Source: Sulfurovum sp. (lineage in GTDB: Bacteria; Campylobacterota; Campylobacteria; Campylobacterales; Sulfurovaceae). From it: a DNA stretch of 64,000 nucleotides. The notes below the pieces were generated by a model that made no database searches, was not told the origin of the DNA, and saw only the letters and a list, made by a program, of their open reading frames with translations. Below, piece after piece: positions 42,047 to 63,127 of this stretch. Where the stretch lies: the NCBI GenBank assembly GCA_027049035.1, contig JALTVI010000091.1:62001-126000 (forward strand), read 5' to 3'. Numbering within the stretch: position 1 is the first letter of the stretch; each line of letters begins with the position of its first letter. A program made the translations under genes and the position numbers.

Positions 42047-42136
42047 GGTTGTATCCTTTTTTCTTATCATTCGTATAGTAGGCATGCAAAGCATGCAGCG
42101 CAAAAGAACAGAAACAGGCATATTATCAGACAACAT

Positions 42137-42157
42137 GTAGGGTGCGTAGCCACGCAC
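42137..42157. repeat. GTAGGGTGCGT-type hairpin, copy 1
   Basis: GTAGGGTGCGT followed by AGCC and ACGCAC forms a 6-bp hairpin upstream of metE. The same opening (GTAGGGTGCGT) and hairpin occur at 51301-51322 between thiS and thiG, so it is a dispersed repeat. Confidence 0.6.
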
Positions 42158-42217
42158 TATATACACACAGTTTATGTTGTGTAATGTAATAATAGTGGTT
42201 TGGATGTTTGCCTGTTT

Positions 42218-42550
42218 TTAGAAAGAAAAAAGAGGAGGGTGGACACCGGTGCGCCGAAAGGCGTAAAATGTCGTATAGAACGGACAGCGGGGGATAAAGT
42301 GATTCAGCAGCAGTACCAGACGCGCTTTGCGTTTATAGTAGCAGTTGCAGTGGCAGGGTTTGACAGGCTGAAGTGTCGTACGCACCTCAAGCAGCGCTTC
42401 GGACGGCTCTTCCTCGTCGCTTGGTTCTCTATCGCTTTGGAAAGTGTGCAGCATGCTTACGGATGACACCTGCGCCTGGAGTTTGTGCGCCACGCTGTGT
42501 GCAAGGATGGCAGAAAGTGTAAAGTAGTTCTTACCGAAACCGCGCAGCAT
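42218..42550 (-). CDS. small protein of unknown function
   Basis: The 110-residue frame starts MLRGFGKNYFTLSAILAHSV, and its ATG lies 5 nt after a strong AAAGGAG site. A mid-section rich in Glu/Ser (REPSDEEEPSEALLE) and a C-terminal part with C-x-C (CHCNCYYKRK) follow. I do not recognise it. The ribosome site and the amphipathic N-terminus support a real gene. The C-terminal half, rich in His, Pro and Cys, looks less protein-like, so a truncated or decayed gene is possible. Confidence 0.4.
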   Translation of the reverse strand: MLRGFGKNYFTLSAILAHSVAHKLQAQVSSVSMLHTFQSDREPSDEEEPSEALLEVRTTLQPVKPCHCNCYYKRKARLVLLLNHFIPRCPFYTTFYAFRRTGVHPPLFSF

Positions 42551-42655
42551 CACATCTCCTTTTGAATTTAAGTGAAATTATAGCCAAGAAAGGTTTAGGG
42601 AATATAAAATAATATGATAGAATCATATAAATAAGAGAGGAAGATAGAGCTGACC

Positions 42656-45600
42656 ATGGTTTCTGACGTTAAGTATCATAATATTATATTTCTGGATCTT
42701 GAAGTAGATACACATACGAAAAAGATTTATGAGCTTGGTATGGTGTATAAAAACCGTACACATAATACCACTGCGATGAATGAAACGGTCAATTTTATTA
42801 AACTCTGTAATACCCGTTATATGTGCGGACATAACTTTATTGATTTTGATCTGGAGATATTAAGAGATACTTCACTTTATGAAGCACTGAAAGCCCATAA
42901 AATCATAGATACGCTGCCTTTGTCCCTCTTGCTTTTCAATGAAAAATCCATACATGCTTTGCCAAAAAATTATAAAAGTGAAGATGATTTCAAAAATGAT
43001 CCTGTAGAGGATTCCAAGTTGACTGCTGAACTTTTGGGACGTATAGAGACACGTTTTTTGTCGTTGGATAGAAACCTTCAAAATATCTTTTATTCTCTTT
43101 TAAAAGAAGAGGAGCACTTTAGCGGCTTTTTTGATTATTTATCGAATGAACACACTTTTGTGTTTATAAATGCAAAAGAACTTCATCGTATGATTTCTGG
43201 CGAATATAAGCAGGTGATCAGAAATAACAAATATCTCAAAGAGGTGATCAAACAACATCCTGTAGAACTTGCATATATTACTGCTCTCTTAACGCCTCAT
43301 ATTGAGATCAAATCACATCCGCCAAGAATTCTGTTTCGCCATCCGGATATTGTGGATATCCAAAGGAAACTCTGTTTTGATCTCTCGTATGAAAAGAAAA
43401 ATTTAAGTGATTTTTCAAAGGAGACATTCGGTTTTGGTACATTTAGGGTTTTCCCGAAATTGAACCCTACGTTACTCAGTTCACAAGTTTCTCAAAAGGA
43501 TATTGTTGAAGCTTCATTGAACAACGATTCTTTTCTCGCTGTTTTGCCTACCGGTGGAGGTAAAACATTCACTTTCTGGCTGCCGGCAATTATCAAGGCA
43601 AAAACGACCAAGTCGCTAACTGTTGTCATTTCACCTTTGCAGGCATTGATTGAAGATCATATTACAAGCTTTAATGCCAAGGTAGCTAACTACAAGGCTG
43701 TAGCTATCAGTGGCTATATGAGCCCGCTTGAACGAAGTGAGGCAATAGAACAGGTTGTGAATGGAGAAGCAGATATTCTCTATTTGGCACCTGAGTCATT
43801 ACGATCAAATATGATCTTCAATATTTTGAAAAACAGGCTTATTGAACGTTTTGTGGTTGATGAAGCACACTGTCTTTCTACATGGGGTAATGACTTCAGA
43901 CAGGACTACTACTATATTTGTGACTATATTAACGATCTGCTTAAAGCGAAAAACTATCAGGAGCATATCCCTGTTTCCTGCTTTACGGCTACGGCCAAAA
44001 AGGATGTTATAGACGATATTAAAACGTATTTTTTGGAAGGGTTGGGGTTAAAACTTGATGAGTATGTTGCCAAGCCTGAGAGGAAAAATCTCAAATACAA
44101 AGCACTGCCTACAGAGAACAGAGAGAAATATCCGGCACTTTTGAAACTGATTAACGAGCATAACGGTGCAACACTGGTGTATATTCCATCATCAACCAAG
44201 GAGTGTGACAAGGTCGCTGAACAACTCAATATTGATACGGATAAAACGGTGCGTTCTTTCCACTCCAAGCTTGATTCACAAGAGAAAATGCAAATACTTA
44301 AAGAGTATATTGATAACCGGATTGACGTTATTGTTGCAACGACAGCGTTCGGGATGGGTGTGGATAAAGCGGATATCACCAATGTTATTCACTATGAAGT
44401 TTCGGATTCTTTGGAAAATTATGCACAGGAGGCAGGAAGAGGTGCACGAGATGAGACGCTGGAAGCTTTTTGTCCCATTTTGTTCGATGAAAATGATTTG
44501 GATAAACATTTTGCCACATTGAACCGCTCCAAGATCACTGCTGCTGAGATCAACTCCGTGTTTCAGGTCATCAAGCGGGCAAAAGGTGACACTGTGACCA
44601 AAACGGCTTTTGAAATAGCCCTTGAAGCTGGGTGGGATGTAGAAGATAGTGCGATCGACTATAGTACAAAAGTGAAAACTGCACTTTTGGAATTGGAAAG
44701 AGAAGGCTACATTAGTCGGAAACGGAACAAAACCAGATTTTTTGCGGACTCGGTAGCGGCACAAAGTATGGAGAAACTTCATCAAGCGTTAGAGGGGCAA
44801 ACAATAGAAGAGAAGGATAAGGAGTTATTAATACTGGTGCTTCAGCATATCTTGCATAGAGGGAGCACAAAGTCGGTACAAATTGATGAGTTGGCCTTTC
44901 TTCTCGGTGCGGAAAAGTCAGCTATTGCATTGGCGATACAGCAGCTTAAAGAGATGAATATCCTGGGGGACAGTAAAGATTTAAGTTTGACTGTTTTTGA
45001 AAACGCTTTAAAAATGTTCCGAGAGATTCAACAGATAGAACAAACACTTGTCTCCTATCTGTTGTCGTTGGATCGTGAAGCGGTGAGTATCAAGGAGTTG
45101 AGCGAACATCTCTATAGTTCAGGTGTGATTCAAAAAAATGAATCAACGCGTATTAGAGATCTGCTTCGTAACCTTAGAGACAAAAGCAGCTTTATATTCA
45201 AACGTATCAGCCGTCAGTATGATCTGTGGTATTTCAAGATAGTAGATGAGGCAACATTTCAAAATGATTTGAAGACCAAACATACGATCAGTGAACAAAT
45301 TATTATCGATTTTATCTCTCAAATACCGAAAAAGCAAAAAGAGACAACAATAGAGTTCTCTTTGAAACAGTTACGTGAAAAGGTAGGAAAAGAGTATAGC
45401 TTGAAAGCAATCGATAGAGCATTGCTTTATCTGCATCATATGCATGTTGTTGAATTGTTGAATGGCCGTTTTATCAGTTATTCCCCTATGATCATCACAA
45501 AAGAGGAGGAGATGAAACGGATCAACAAAAAATATACAAAGCAGGACTACAAGCATCGTATGGAACCACACTATCGTTCCAAAGTGGAAGCGATCCATAT

Positions 45601-47467
45601 TATGGGTGAGTATGGGAAAATACTGCAATACGATCCGACAAGGGCCGGTAGATTTTTAAGAGACTACTTTACAATGGAATATAGCGCTTTCAAACAGAAA
45701 TATGCATTAGTCAAAGCGAAAATTACACGTCCTATTACACAGCGAAGGTATAACAAGATATTTTCTGAGATGTCAGATGAACAAAAGGCTGTGATTGCTG
45801 ACAGGGAAACAAAGGCTATGATGGTACTTGCCGGTCCGGGAAGCGGTAAAACAAAAGTACTGGTACATAAAATTGCTTCATTGATTCTAACGGAAGATAT
45901 CAAACCTGAACAGTTTATGATGCTTACCTTTTCCCGTACCGCTGCCAATGAGTTTCGAAGCCGACTTTATAAGCTGATAGGAGAGATATCTTATGATATT
46001 GAAATCTATACCTTTCATGCCTATGCCTTGAAACTCATTGGTAGAGTGGTAAAAGAGGATGACAATATCCTTCATAATGCCATTAGAGAGGCGGTCAAAC
46101 AGATCGTAAATGGTGATATACCGTTACCATTTAAAAGTGTTCTGGTTCTGGATGAGTATCAGGATATCAATCAGGATAGTTTTGATCTGGTCAAGGAGAT
46201 TTACCATGCCAATAGAGAAATGCGTATTATTGCTGTAGGTGACGACGATCAGTGCATCATGGGGCATGCCGGAGCGGATGTACGTTTTATTGATGCATTT
46301 AAAGAGGTGTTTGGTCAGGACGAAGAGGGGAAAGAGAGTTATAAACAGTATGAACTACTGACTAACTTTAGAAGCACTAAACGCATTGTCTCTTATACCA
46401 ATACATTCATAGAACATGTTCATAAACGATACAAAACCCATCCGTTAATTCCTTACAGTGAAGAAGAGGGATCGGTTACTGTACAGACTTGCCTATGGCG
46501 TGATCTAGTTATGCCTGCGGTCAAAAAGATTGAAACAGAAGAGATGTTGCAAAACTGTGCAGTTTTAGCTTATACGAACGCTGAGGTGATGAGGCTCTAT
46601 TCCTTGTTAGATGCCAGAGGGATTAGGGTGAAATATATTTTGGATAGAGATGGTTTTTCTCTTAAAAATCTTGTAGAAATTGTCTACTTTGATCAAGTTT
46701 TGAGTGACCTAAGCAAACAGGAGGGGCTTTATAGAGCAGAAGATTTCCGTGAAGCCTTTGTGTTGACGCAGGTAAAGTTCAAGGGCTCAAAAAATCTGCC
46801 ACTGTTGGAAAAAGTCATTGACAAATTTCTTTTGGAGAGCCTTACCTATCATATTTCACAATGGCTGGCCTACCTTGATGAGATCAAGTTTGAAGATTTT
46901 GAATCTTATCATAACACTGCTACGGTTTCTACCATTCATAAATCGAAAGGCATGGAGTTCGACAAAGTGATTTTATTGGTTTCCCCGGATCGTATGCCTA
47001 AAAAAGACGAAGAGTACCGCCTTTTTTATGTAGGTATGACACGTGCGAAACAGGAACTAACCATTTTAATGCATGGAAAACGAAAGCTTTCGAAAACCGA
47101 TGAGAATGTCAGATACCTCTTCGATGAAACTGAATATATCAGTAACGATGAACAGGTAACACTGGTTATGGGGTTAAAAGATATCGTCCTTGGGTTTGAT
47201 AATACCCCAAATATGCAATCAGCAGAGATCATAGCGGGTGAAGTCGTCACATTTAAACAAAGAGGAGAAAATAGACCGTTTGCTATTCTCTATAAAGGGA
47301 TGGAGATAGGTCTATTGTCAAAAAGATTTTTTGCTGAACTTCAGGGGTATTTTGAAAAAGGGTATCACATTGGAAAAGCATCTATTGATTATGTGGTTGT
47401 GTGGTATGACAAAGAGAAGGATGCGTATTTAAAACATCCGCTGTGCAAGGTTGTTTTGTCGAAATAA
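42656..47467 (+). CDS. exonuclease-RecQ-UvrD fusion helicase
   Basis: The 1603-residue protein has three enzymatic parts. Residues 1-150 form a DnaQ-like exonuclease (FLDLEVD, CGHNFIDFD, DPVEDSKLTAEL), with Asn in place of the usual His five residues before the last Asp. Residues about 270-780 form a RecQ helicase: PTGGGKT (298), VVDEAHCLSTWGNDFRQDY (401), TATAKK, TTAFGMGVDKADI (562), QEAGRGARDE (592), then winged-helix-like segments. Residues about 1030-1500 form a UvrD/Rep helicase: AGPGSGKT (1059), LDEYQD (1164), GDDDQ (1195), STIHKSKGMEFDK (1424), YVGMTRAK (1457). It probably unwinds and trims DNA in repair or defence. AT-rich codons set it apart from its neighbours, suggesting transfer. 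Confidence 0.9.
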   Translation: MVSDVKYHNIIFLDLEVDTHTKKIYELGMVYKNRTHNTTAMNETVNFIKLCNTRYMCGHNFIDFDLEILRDTSLYEALKAHKIIDTLPLSLLLFNEKSIHALPKNYKSEDDFKNDPVEDSKLTAELLGRIETRFLSLDRNLQNIFYSLLKEEEHFSGFFDYLSNEHTFVFINAKELHRMISGEYKQVIRNNKYLKEVIKQHPVELAYITALLTPHIEIKSHPPRILFRHPDIVDIQRKLCFDLSYEKKNLSDFSKETFGFGTFRVFPKLNPTLLSSQVSQKDIVEASLNNDSFLAVLPTGGGKTFTFWLPAIIKAKTTKSLTVVISPLQALIEDHITSFNAKVANYKAVAISGYMSPLERSEAIEQVVNGEADILYLAPESLRSNMIFNILKNRLIERFVVDEAHCLSTWGNDFRQDYYYICDYINDLLKAKNYQEHIPVSCFTATAKKDVIDDIKTYFLEGLGLKLDEYVAKPERKNLKYKALPTENREKYPALLKLINEHNGATLVYIPSSTKECDKVAEQLNIDTDKTVRSFHSKLDSQEKMQILKEYIDNRIDVIVATTAFGMGVDKADITNVIHYEVSDSLENYAQEAGRGARDETLEAFCPILFDENDLDKHFATLNRSKITAAEINSVFQVIKRAKGDTVTKTAFEIALEAGWDVEDSAIDYSTKVKTALLELEREGYISRKRNKTRFFADSVAAQSMEKLHQALEGQTIEEKDKELLILVLQHILHRGSTKSVQIDELAFLLGAEKSAIALAIQQLKEMNILGDSKDLSLTVFENALKMFREIQQIEQTLVSYLLSLDREAVSIKELSEHLYSSGVIQKNESTRIRDLLRNLRDKSSFIFKRISRQYDLWYFKIVDEATFQNDLKTKHTISEQIIIDFISQIPKKQKETTIEFSLKQLREKVGKEYSLKAIDRALLYLHHMHVVELLNGRFISYSPMIITKEEEMKRINKKYTKQDYKHRMEPHYRSKVEAIHIMGEYGKILQYDPTRAGRFLRDYFTMEYSAFKQKYALVKAKITRPITQRRYNKIFSEMSDEQKAVIADRETKAMMVLAGPGSGKTKVLVHKIASLILTEDIKPEQFMMLTFSRTAANEFRSRLYKLIGEISYDIEIYTFHAYALKLIGRVVKEDDNILHNAIREAVKQIVNGDIPLPFKSVLVLDEYQDINQDSFDLVKEIYHANREMRIIAVGDDDQCIMGHAGADVRFIDAFKEVFGQDEEGKESYKQYELLTNFRSTKRIVSYTNTFIEHVHKRYKTHPLIPYSEEEGSVTVQTCLWRDLVMPAVKKIETEEMLQNCAVLAYTNAEVMRLYSLLDARGIRVKYILDRDGFSLKNLVEIVYFDQVLSDLSKQEGLYRAEDFREAFVLTQVKFKGSKNLPLLEKVIDKFLLESLTYHISQWLAYLDEIKFEDFESYHNTATVSTIHKSKGMEFDKVILLVSPDRMPKKDEEYRLFYVGMTRAKQELTILMHGKRKLSKTDENVRYLFDETEYISNDEQVTLVMGLKDIVLGFDNTPNMQSAEIIAGEVVTFKQRGENRPFAILYKGMEIGLLSKRFFAELQGYFEKGYHIGKASIDYVVVWYDKEKDAYLKHPLCKVVLSK

Positions 47468-47603
47468 ATGGACTTGCATCAACTTTATTTTATATAGATT
47501 AGATTCCTACGGTGTGTAATAAAACATAATAAATCTAATAACCTTAGGTAAATCAAATATTATTTAAGAGAAATTTTATCTTAAATTGACTATAGTGGAC
47601 TTT

Positions 47604-47702
47604 CAAACTCTCGGGGTGCCATGGAAGACATGGCTGAGAAGACCCACAAAGGTCTACCCGCTGAACTTGACCCGGACAATACCGGCGTAAGGAAGAGCTT
47701 TG
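47604..47702 (+). promoter_or_regulatory. TPP riboswitch upstream of thiC
   Basis: The conserved THI-box parts occur in order: TCGGGGTGCC, GGCTGAGA, ACCCGCTGAACTTGACCCGG, CAATACCGGCGTAAGGAAGA (the last ones abutting). Outer bases CAAACTC / GAGCTTTG can form stem P1. It lies 109 bp before thiC. The rest of the leader contains a weak A/T hairpin (GAAAAAA…TTTTTTC, about 47719-47745), so control of translation initiation may be as likely as termination. The flanks of this 343-bp gap (47468-47603 and 47703-47810) hold no gene. Confidence 0.95.
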
Positions 47703-47705
47703 TAA

Positions 47706-49740
<2,035 letters not shown>

Positions 49741-53889: not shown

Positions 53890-54162
53890 TATTACCGAAC
53901 CAACGGGTAGTCTGAGCTTTTGAGAGGATGAGACCAGGTAAGATGTGCGTTAAAAAGCCTGAAGGACTGTCCGTAGACAATTCAAAGATTTTTTTGCGTG
54001 CAGGTTGCCTGGTATCATCCTCCCCAAAGGGTGCAGCACTTTCGCCCACATACCGCGTTAGATTTTCTTGAATTAGCCTCCGGCTAGTCCTGCAAAAATC
54101 TGCCTTGCCTGTGAACGAAATTGTTGCATCAAAAATTCAGACTATCCGTTGGTTAGGTAATA
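53890..54162. mobile_element. MITE-like element with 34-bp imperfect terminal inverted repeats
   Basis: The left end (53890-53923) and the reverse complement of the right end (54129-54162) agree at 30 of 34 bases, both beginning TATTACC and sharing AACCAACGG and TAGTCTGA. The outermost TA on each side could be a TA target duplication, as for Tc1/mariner-type MITEs. A second stem lies inside: GAGGATGAGACCAGG (53924-53938) against CCTGGTATCATCCTC (54009-54023). There is no coding capacity. The right end abuts the TPP riboswitch exactly. A TATAAC box at 53879-53884 would place the element within the leader RNA. Confidence 0.65.
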
Positions 54163-54238
54163 AACTCTCGGGGTGCTCTATGAGCTGAGATACCACCCGC
54201 AGAACTTGACCCGGACAATGCCGGCGTAAGGAAGAGTT
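54163..54238 (+). promoter_or_regulatory. TPP riboswitch upstream of the thiamine uptake operon
   Basis: It contains CTCGGGGTGCT, AGCTGAGATACCACCCGC, AGAACTTGACCCGG and ACAATGCCGGCGTAAGGAAG in THI-box order. P1 is formed by AACTCT / AGAGTT. It lies 69 bp before the TonB-receptor start. Binding of TPP should lower expression of the whole uptake and salvage set. The other parts of the gap between thiD and the receptor hold the MITE-like element and AT-rich promoter-like DNA, and no gene. Confidence 0.95.
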
Positions 54239-54306
54239 GTACTGCATAAATGTACCTTCTGCTTGCTGCCTCCCGCATTCTCCGAAACTATTTTGAGGAA
54301 AAATCT

Positions 54307-60649: not shown

Positions 60650-63127
60650 TTATTCTTCCTTCTTGTCCGTTGTGAGTTTTTCGATTATTCGTTCCGTATT
60701 ATGGCAGAAATTTCCATTCTTTTCGATGAGGAACATATCACGCACACGGTTTTTGAGGGTATGTACTTTCGCGGTAACGATATCGATACCCATCTCATCG
60801 AACATATCGATGATGTAGGCAAGCAGTCCTCTCTGGTTTTTGCTTCGAAGATGCATGATGGCGTAGGTCTTGGAGTGCTCACAGTCGATGTCGATATCCT
60901 CCTTTTTGATCAGTGGAATCGATTCGATGCTTTTTTTGGTCGGATCGAATGCATCGTTGATGATTTGCTCTATAAGCCCGACTTCATCATCATCCACCCG
61001 CGTAGCAAAGTCGATCTTGAAGTACTTGAGCTCGTTGAAAAGTTTGCTGATATCCATATTGACCACTTCAAGTGTGCTGAGTTTTCCCAGCAGATAACTG
61101 AGGTTGATGGAGTCGGCACGGATAATTTCGATGGTGAGGTAGTCGCGGTTGCTGATGTGGTAGGTGTAATGTTCTGTCTCAAACGCCTTTTTTGCAATTT
61201 CGACGATACGTTCCGGCCGGTAGCGCAGGAAAAGGAGATTGGAGGGCATCTGGAGGATCTTCTTCTGTTCACTGCGCTTGAGTGCCAGAAATGCCGGGTG
61301 GCGCTTGAGTGCCTGTTCCTTTTTTGCGCGTTTGGCCGCTTCATCGAGCATGGCTGTGCGGCCCAGCACTTCAAGCGAGTGTTTGTAGAGTGTACGCAGC
61401 AGACGTGCGGAGAAGGAGCTGTAGATGTCGCTGCCCACTCCGTTCATATCGGCATAGGTGAGAATATAGATCATATCAAGCAGTTTTTTGGTTGGAAAGT
61501 GTGATGCAAAGCCAAAGATGATCTTCTCGCTGTAGAGGTCTTCGCGCTGTGCAACGTTGCTCATCAGTGTATGGTACTGGATAAGCCGTTCTCCCATATC
61601 GATAAGTTCGGGTTTGATGTCCAACTTCTGAGCGAAGATCTTGAAAAGGGACGCACCTACAAGATGGTGGTCGCGTTTGCGTCCTTTACCCGCATCGTGC
61701 AGGAAAACGACCAGTTTGAGCATCGCCTTCTCTTCTCCGTCAAGCGCATCGTAGAGCTCTTGGACCAGCGGCTCCTCGATATGTTCAAGATGGTAGACGC
61801 AGCGGAGTGAATGGATGTCGACGGCAAACTGGTGGTAGCCGTCAAACTGGGGCAGGTCAACTACCTTTTTGATAGGGGGAATCGTGTAGCGCAGCAGTCT
61901 GACATAGGAGAGGGTACTTAAAACGGAGTAGGCGTGCGGCTGGCAGAAAATTGCGGAAATGGTTTTGTAGAGTATCTCGTCGGGGCGCTCCGGATGTTTG
62001 GCATCGATGAGGGCGCGCAGGAAAGTCGGATGGGCGCGGAACGGGGTATGCGCTTCCCTGACCAGCTGCTTCAGCAGGCCATTGAGGTCCCGACTATTTT
62101 TGGGGTAGATGAATCGCTTCTGTGAGGGAATCTCCACATAGTCTCGGGTGAGCTTTTCCAGCCATATGGTACTGTAAAGACGGACGATTTTGAGTGACTC
62201 GGTGACTTTTTTTGCAAATTTTGTCTGTCCGTTGGGGGTATTCTCATACCCAAGAAGTGTACCTACCTTTGGAATATGTTCGAGTCTGAGCCTGTCCTCC
62301 TTCTTATGGGTGGCAAGATGCAGGGCTGAACGGACGCGGAAGAGAAACTCCAGTGCAATGCGAAAGGGCTTGTATTCACTCTCTTCTACTATCTCTGAAG
62401 GCAGATCCTTGATGGCATTGATGTTGTAACGCACCTTTCCTATCCAGTAGACAAGGTTGGCGTCTCTGAAACCGCCTGCACCCTCTTTGAGGTTCGGCTC
62501 CATCGTCAGGGGGTACTTGTGATGTTTCTGTGCCTGCTCTTCAAGTTTGGCCTCTATGAACGCTTTGATATCGTCGTGACGTATCTGGGCAAGCGCGTTT
62601 TGTGTCTCTGTCCAGATGAAATGCGAGCCGTCAATGAAGCGTGATTCGATCAGTGCGGTTTTGATGGTAATGTCGGTTTTGGAGACTTCAAAGAGCTCTT
62701 CAACAGTGTGGACGCGGTGTCCCAGTTTGAGCCCCGTATCCCAGAGCAGATAGAGTACCTTTTCTATGAGCGCTTTGGTGTTGTAGCCGGGAATATCCCT
62801 GTAGACGATCATCAGGTCGATATCGGAATAGACGCAGAGTTGCTCCCGTCCGTAGGAACCCAGTGCGACCAGGCCGACAGGGATGGCGTTTTTAAGCGGT
62901 GTGTAGTTGCCGAACATCGAGCGCAGCGTCACCTGGTAGGCAAGTTTGATGATGGTATCTATCTTCTTCGTATGTCTGACCAGAAAGTCTTTGCCGCCGG
63001 TGGTGGAGAAGGTCTCTTCAAGGGTTTCGAAATAGGCTTTGATCTCCTTTTTGAGGACTTTTGCGATCTCGAGATCAGAAGCACCTTCATACAGCAGTGC
63101 TTCGATTTCAGACTTCAACTGGTTCAT
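60650..63127 (-). CDS. glnD: PII uridylyltransferase/uridylyl-removing enzyme
   Basis: The 825-residue GlnD-type protein has an N-terminal nucleotidyltransferase (GSYGREQLCVYSDIDLMIVY, the G-S…D-x-D motif) and a helical linker. An HD hydrolase domain (VFLHDAGKGRKRDHHLVG) and two ACT domains at the C-terminus (IEIIRADSINLSYLLG; HLRSKNQRGLLAYIID) follow. It adds or removes UMP on PII protein in response to glutamine. No glnB lies in the window. A GAGGAG site precedes the ATG. It is in one operon with glmS. Confidence 0.93.
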   Translation of the reverse strand: MNQLKSEIEALLYEGASDLEIAKVLKKEIKAYFETLEETFSTTGGKDFLVRHTKKIDTIIKLAYQVTLRSMFGNYTPLKNAIPVGLVALGSYGREQLCVYSDIDLMIVYRDIPGYNTKALIEKVLYLLWDTGLKLGHRVHTVEELFEVSKTDITIKTALIESRFIDGSHFIWTETQNALAQIRHDDIKAFIEAKLEEQAQKHHKYPLTMEPNLKEGAGGFRDANLVYWIGKVRYNINAIKDLPSEIVEESEYKPFRIALEFLFRVRSALHLATHKKEDRLRLEHIPKVGTLLGYENTPNGQTKFAKKVTESLKIVRLYSTIWLEKLTRDYVEIPSQKRFIYPKNSRDLNGLLKQLVREAHTPFRAHPTFLRALIDAKHPERPDEILYKTISAIFCQPHAYSVLSTLSYVRLLRYTIPPIKKVVDLPQFDGYHQFAVDIHSLRCVYHLEHIEEPLVQELYDALDGEEKAMLKLVVFLHDAGKGRKRDHHLVGASLFKIFAQKLDIKPELIDMGERLIQYHTLMSNVAQREDLYSEKIIFGFASHFPTKKLLDMIYILTYADMNGVGSDIYSSFSARLLRTLYKHSLEVLGRTAMLDEAAKRAKKEQALKRHPAFLALKRSEQKKILQMPSNLLFLRYRPERIVEIAKKAFETEHYTYHISNRDYLTIEIIRADSINLSYLLGKLSTLEVVNMDISKLFNELKYFKIDFATRVDDDEVGLIEQIINDAFDPTKKSIESIPLIKKEDIDIDCEHSKTYAIMHLRSKNQRGLLAYIIDMFDEMGIDIVTAKVHTLKNRVRDMFLIEKNGNFCHNTERIIEKLTTDKKEE

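Follow-up and report, generated by a model that had tools for sequence, protein, structure and literature searches.

A single gene of Sulfurovum sp. (assembly GCA_027049035.1, contig JALTVI010000091.1) encodes a DEDD-type 3'-5' exonuclease, a RecQ-type helicase and a UvrD-type helicase in one chain. The gene lies within the 64,000-nucleotide stretch of DNA analysed here (the window; positions 62,001 to 126,000 of the forward strand). Comparisons of sequences and loci indicate that it is an accessory gene spread by gene transfer, and we give about even chances to the reading that its product would be an accessory, horizontally spread, one-protein helicase-exonuclease directed to 3' ends, with defence as its most likely benefit. 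An earlier note, made from the sequence of the window alone, had described three enzyme modules in one chain; all three were found, with the helicase motifs at the positions it gave. It placed the gene after metE and before the thiC riboswitch, a TPP riboswitch at 47602-47710, and this holds, as does its description of the gene as AT-rich: GC is 0.387 and GC3 0.386, at the bottom of the 46 ORFs in the window. The riboswitch is directly 3' of the fusion gene, and the thi region of the window has a second one at 54159-54249.

Domains of the fusion protein

From N- to C-terminus the protein consists of the DEDD exonuclease, the RecQ core, a helical middle with winged-helix-like segments, a compact UvrD helicase and a beta-rich C-terminus (Table 1). 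The same domain order occurs in full-length homologues from Campylobacterota, Bacteroidota, Cyanobacteriota and Proteobacteria, so the fusion gene is not an assembly artefact.

Table 1. Features of the fusion gene and of the metE-thiC gap, in window coordinates.
Feature	Coordinates	Strand	Evidence
Exonuclease-RecQ-UvrD fusion gene	42656..47467	+	1603 aa, single open frame, full-length homologues
DEDD (DnaQ-like) 3'-5' exonuclease domain, residues about 8-160	42677..43135	+	AF2 model, VIA-align, alignments
RecQ-type SF2 helicase core, residues 279-622, without RQC zinc cysteines	43490..44521	+	TIGR00614, DEAD, Helicase_C, PDB BLM/RecQ matches, cysteine scan
Helical middle with winged-helix-like segments, residues about 620-1035	44522..45760	+	AF2 secondary structure; weak HTH matches in some homologues
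Compact UvrD-type SF1A helicase, residues 1036-1480	45761..47095	+	PF00580, PF13361, Foldseek, VIA-align
Beta-rich C-terminal region, about last 100 residues	47096..47464	+	AF2 secondary structure; no Pfam family
Empty site: segment that relative G002 lacks in a metE-thiC gap syntenic in all else	42610..47560	.	blastn, alignment

The RecQ core scores above the curated NCBIfam cut-off for RecQ family helicases (TIGR00614, 227.9 bits against 219.8, residues 278-622) and is also matched by Pfam DEAD and Helicase_C. It stays below the cut-off of the equivalog model for bacterial RecQ proper (TIGR01389, 236.1 bits against 640.2). Its motifs start at residues 298 (PTGGGKT), 401 (VDEAHCLS), 561 (ATTAFGMGVDK) and 591 (QEAGRGARD). 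The zinc cysteines of the RQC region are missing, residues 600-759 containing a single conserved Cys (606).

The second motor is a member of the UvrD/Rep SF1A group, with both the N-terminal domain (PF00580, 112.5 bits, from residue 1039) and the C-terminal domain (UvrD_C, PF13361, to residue 1473) above cut-off and with invariant motif residues. It falls short of the UvrD, PcrA and Rep equivalogs (PRK11773 137 of 965, pcrA 134 of 911, rep 118 of 951). Motifs start at residues 1059 (AGPGSGKT), 1166 (DEYQDIN), 1195 (GDDDQCI), 1236 (TNFRS), 1425 (STIHKSKGMEF) and 1459 (VGMTRAK), and both Foldseek and VIA-align match this part to UvrD/PcrA/Rep structures (Z up to 33.6). The spacing between Walker A and DExQD is 107 residues, shorter than in UvrD itself, suggesting a small 1B domain. 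We aligned 39 proteins of full or nearly full length that span four phyla, some with truncated ends; those ends aside, K303, D402, E403, R595 and R598 of the RecQ core and K1065, D1166, E1167, Q1199 and R1239 of the UvrD core do not vary. A HIRAN domain guessed by eye near the C-terminus (residues about 1540-1570) had no Pfam match in ten sequences.

The exonuclease part was recognised by its fold. Pfam gave no match above cut-off for it in the window protein and no exonuclease family for the N-termini of ten plasmid homologues. We modelled residues 1-278 with AF2 from 21 homologues (pLDDT 81); a helical segment separates the exonuclease domain from the RecQ core in this model. Foldseek alone gave weak matches (best E 7.9e-4). 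With VIA-align all matches listed were DEDD-type exonucleases or exonuclease-bearing DNA polymerases (Z 9.3-10.5), led by E. coli Pol II (Z 10.5, rmsd 2.8, 128 residues) and including oligoribonuclease, REXO2, ExoI, a TREX1 homologue, ExoX and RNase T. The earlier note had made its exonuclease assignment depend on a fold match for residues 1-160, and with these matches the assignment survives. Judged by the fold of the model, the N-terminus belongs to the DEDD 3'-5' exonuclease superfamily.

Distribution and gene neighbourhoods

Of 397 good Campylobacterota genomes, 22 carry the fusion gene, and these belong to 14 of 68 genera. A pattern search of 84,980 genomes, which reaches close relatives only, yielded 26 loci with full-length homologues. 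Nine plasmids have full-length homologues at a coverage of at least 80% (hosts Aliarcobacter, Bacteroides, Phocaeicola, Nostoc, Thiothrix, Sulfitobacter and Rhizobium) and other plasmids have partial matches; the gene is found on plasmids, on ICE-like elements and at isolated chromosomal sites. Most homologues are publicly annotated as 'RecQ family ATP-dependent DNA helicase'. One copy (L006 / L037, G030) is broken by many stops, maybe through decay or sequencing error. A phage origin was rejected: neither the exonuclease alignment nor the whole protein found a relative in a viral contig collection, and phage records match the RecQ length only.

The suggestion of the earlier note that the gene may serve defence is a real candidate by its neighbourhoods, although the signal is uneven. 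The survey of homologues that the note proposed found a strong association in Flavobacteriaceae, where 4 of 7 loci adjoin defence systems recognised by PADLOC. PADLOC calls a complete Gabija (GajA + GajB) beside the gene in L040, a type I restriction subunit that stops 11 bases before it in L045, a DUF4297 gene in L046 and an LmuB-like (Lamassu-like) ATPase in L043. An McrC-like neighbour guessed by eye in L042 was not confirmed by PADLOC. By eye, Wadjet-like genes are seen near the copy in L022. Plasmid copies have type I restriction genes, CRISPR genes at about 4 kb, toxin-antitoxin pairs and partition genes nearby. Strong PADLOC matches (E <= 1e-60) number at least 5 among 113 proteins near the gene versus 0 among 120 controls (one-sided Fisher p 0.026, from the first 25 families listed), a suggestive excess that includes methyltransferase and dGTPase matches, perhaps not defence genes. 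Enrichment is modest in Campylobacterota, where many copies are single among housekeeping genes with no defence genes nearby, and there is no defence island at the window locus, which is surrounded by metabolic genes (metE, thi).

No constant operon partner was found across the loci examined. In three Campylobacterota loci the fusion gene begins within or right at the end of a DUF2779 gene directly upstream; in a few, methyltransferase and/or HNH genes are close before or after it. PMC3985635 lists DUF2779 among presumed 3'-5' exonucleases, and it occurs together with a PD-(D/E)XK-like domain. In three Campylobacterota loci the methyltransferase and HNH-type protein adjoin the fusion gene, separate or fused in one chain (L022:14827-16385; L080:12181-13891; L081:12659-14401). 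The description of the gene as standing alone is therefore correct at the window locus but not for these genomes with tight partners, nor for close relatives whose metE-thiC gap also houses an ABC-export operon. Arcobacter relatives have, on plasmids and one chromosome, a recurring cluster of SbcC(D)-like, ATPase, DUF2779 and dGTPase genes (L075:27-15810; L114:358-14997; L115:1-12022), whose make-up suggests a modular cluster for DNA processing or defence; the gene after DUF2779 is variable and is the exonuclease-RecQ-UvrD fusion in G457. In an Aliarcobacter genome the gene of a YobI-like P-loop NTPase (L024:6324-9983; 1220 aa; PF20693) stops 12 bases short of the fusion gene, in the vicinity of a resolvase-type recombinase.

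We prefer defence over plasmid or host repair because the neighbours include unrelated defence systems and because the gene is sparsely distributed and spread by transfer, features that are common to other accessory genes too. The case is weakened by the metabolic setting of the window locus and by the many Campylobacterota copies without defence neighbours. A serious possibility, though short of even, is that the protein serves mobile DNA or the host as an accessory factor in repair or recombination. It would then act in a WRN-like manner where forks stall or recombination intermediates form on plasmids, ICEs or DNA acquired recently, and would not attack invaders. Plasmids are frequent among the carriers, the gene adjoins parAB and replication genes on plasmid pACIB and accompanies ICE-like mobilisation genes in Flagellimonas, the pairing of an exonuclease with RecQ resembles WRN, and DUF2779 occurs in sbcCD-containing clusters, with the fusion gene following SbcC-like, ATPase and DUF2779 genes in G457. 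However, many copies are chromosomal and distant from plasmid genes, hosts already own recQ and uvrD (the window's own host has a separate recQ and two UvrD-like genes besides the fusion gene), and plasmid maintenance does not predict unrelated defence systems as neighbours.

The exonuclease active site and a proposed mechanism

The four acidic metal ligands of the exonuclease domain (D14, E16, D65, D119) are invariant in the 39 aligned sequences, truncated ends aside, as are H59, N60, D85 and P116. At the position of the catalytic His (N114) stands Asn in 38 of the 39 and Ser in the other, so the replacement of His by Asn, pointed out in the earlier note, is a family trait rather than a local mutation. 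The position of the DEDDy Tyr holds Asp or Asn. With no His five and no Tyr four residues before the last Asp, the domain falls into neither the DEDDh (DnaQ) nor the DEDDy group. A His or Tyr is considered necessary for catalysis in DEDD exonucleases. Because the catalytic His is missing, the predicted nuclease activity is not assured; the Asn suggests that the nuclease is slow, under regulation or activated in a different way, and not a housekeeping exonuclease.

RecQ and UvrD move 3'-5' on single strands, and DEDD enzymes use two metal ions and cut from 3' ends. Both motors of the fusion protein would bind 3' single-stranded tails and travel 3'-5'. The RecQ part may open a forked or tailed duplex, the UvrD part may extend the opening or strip the exposed strand, and the DEDD domain would trim the 3' end that both motors present. 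The outcome would be unwinding and resection of DNA that exposes 3' ends or contains gaps or forks, such as replicating or recombining phage or plasmid DNA. Defence against invading DNA would be the likeliest gain for carriers, and in some genomes the protein may act beside the DUF2779 nuclease or the methyltransferase/HNH pair.

PADLOC-DB 2023 has no full-length system match to the protein, the 25 matches listed being of domain length only. That it is a new one-protein immune enzyme of broad spread, combining SF2 and SF1 motors of like polarity with an Asn-base 3'-5' exonuclease as a new DEDD subtype, is a tentative proposal that we consider doubtful. We think it unlikely that the protein is structural or regulatory, with two working motors and a catalytically dead DEDD domain that merely binds 3' ends: this would account for an Asn where the general base is His in DEDDh and Tyr in DEDDy enzymes, but a dead domain would have no need of the HN and IDT motifs or of all four metal ligands, which are invariant from Campylobacterota to Rhizobium.

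Gene transfer and relation to known systems

What lies between metE and thiC varies among Sulfurovum genomes. Relative G002 is syntenic with the window on both flanks (DNA identity 87-90%) and lacks exactly the segment listed in Table 1, a precise empty site found by the gap comparison that the earlier note had called for. No integrase and no terminal repeats spanning the segment ends were found. Three Sulfurovum genomes (window, G015, L029) have the fusion gene at this site. The gap of L029 also contains an ABC-export operon, and that of G055 contains the operon without the fusion gene. In two relatives the operon consists of outer-membrane-efflux, ABC, adaptor and permease genes, to which L029 adds a signal-peptidase-like gene (gaps compared: window 42047-47560; L029:14915-19549; L064:1533-5816).

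Identity at fourfold-degenerate sites between the window and G015 is 0.64 in the fusion gene versus 0.35-0.45 in metE, thiC, thiO and thiG, and between the window and L029 it is 0.87 versus 0.55-0.73 in flanking core genes, values for which the low GC3 of the fusion gene may lift the chance level slightly. This silent-site excess fits exchange after the species parted. In the tree, Sulfurovaceae copies are scattered over several places and a single Sulfurovaceae clade is rejected (p-AU 4.5e-6); copies of different phyla form separate old groups, with no recent cross-phylum transfer evident. The empty site, the sparse distribution, the clade test and the silent-site test all agree with the acquisition by transfer that the earlier note had proposed, and vertical homologues at one conserved place are not the pattern seen. 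It is highly improbable that the gene is an assembly artefact or an ordinary repair gene passed on vertically: the shared metE-thiC site in three Sulfurovum genomes is set against dozens of independent full-length copies, a closer relative whose site is empty, the rejection of a single clade and the excess identity at silent sites.

Part of this architecture has been described. A 2014 classification of RNase H-like proteins (PMC3985635) has a cluster, F.14, for the PF13482-type 3'-5' exonuclease domains found in 'RecQ ATP-dependent DNA helicases'. The fusion protein shares the exonuclease-RecQ association, and two of its homologues match PF13482 weakly (E 0.0016); the text on cluster F.14 in that paper makes no mention of a UvrD part, distribution, mobility or function. 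The association being known from that text, the triple fusion is not a categorically new system. B. subtilis DinG (PMC12525004) is also a DEDD exonuclease-helicase fusion and degrades single-stranded DNA 3'-5', but with a single, XPD-like motor. Like Werner helicase (WRN), the fusion protein has an N-terminal DEDD exonuclease on a RecQ core, and this core matches WRN and BLM structures; unlike WRN, it has an exonuclease from another branch, no zinc-type RQC and a whole UvrD motor added. Gabija also partners a UvrD-type helicase, GajB, with a nuclease. Residues 1030-1481 are matched by the GajB models of PADLOC, and GajB structures are among the fold matches to the UvrD part. Gabija differs in having two separate proteins and a TOPRIM/OLD nuclease, without RecQ or a DEDD domain. 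RecBCD, AddAB and AdnAB share helicase-nuclease end processing and UvrD-type motors but are multi-subunit, with a RecB-type nuclease and no RecQ motor. The RecQ-like defence proteins DpdF and PsyrT provide the best PADLOC models for the RecQ core among the matches listed, but these matches stop at residues 630-690, and both proteins lack the exonuclease and the UvrD part and have different partner genes. A search of open-access papers found no publication on an exonuclease-RecQ-UvrD or RecQ-UvrD fusion.

If the reading preferred here is right, a widespread mobile helicase-nuclease has been hidden under the generic database name, so that neither its occurrence nor its likely part in conflicts with phages or plasmids has been noticed. 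The protein would then offer a single-chain model for the cooperation of two motors of the same polarity from different superfamilies, and a natural DEDD exonuclease without His or Tyr.
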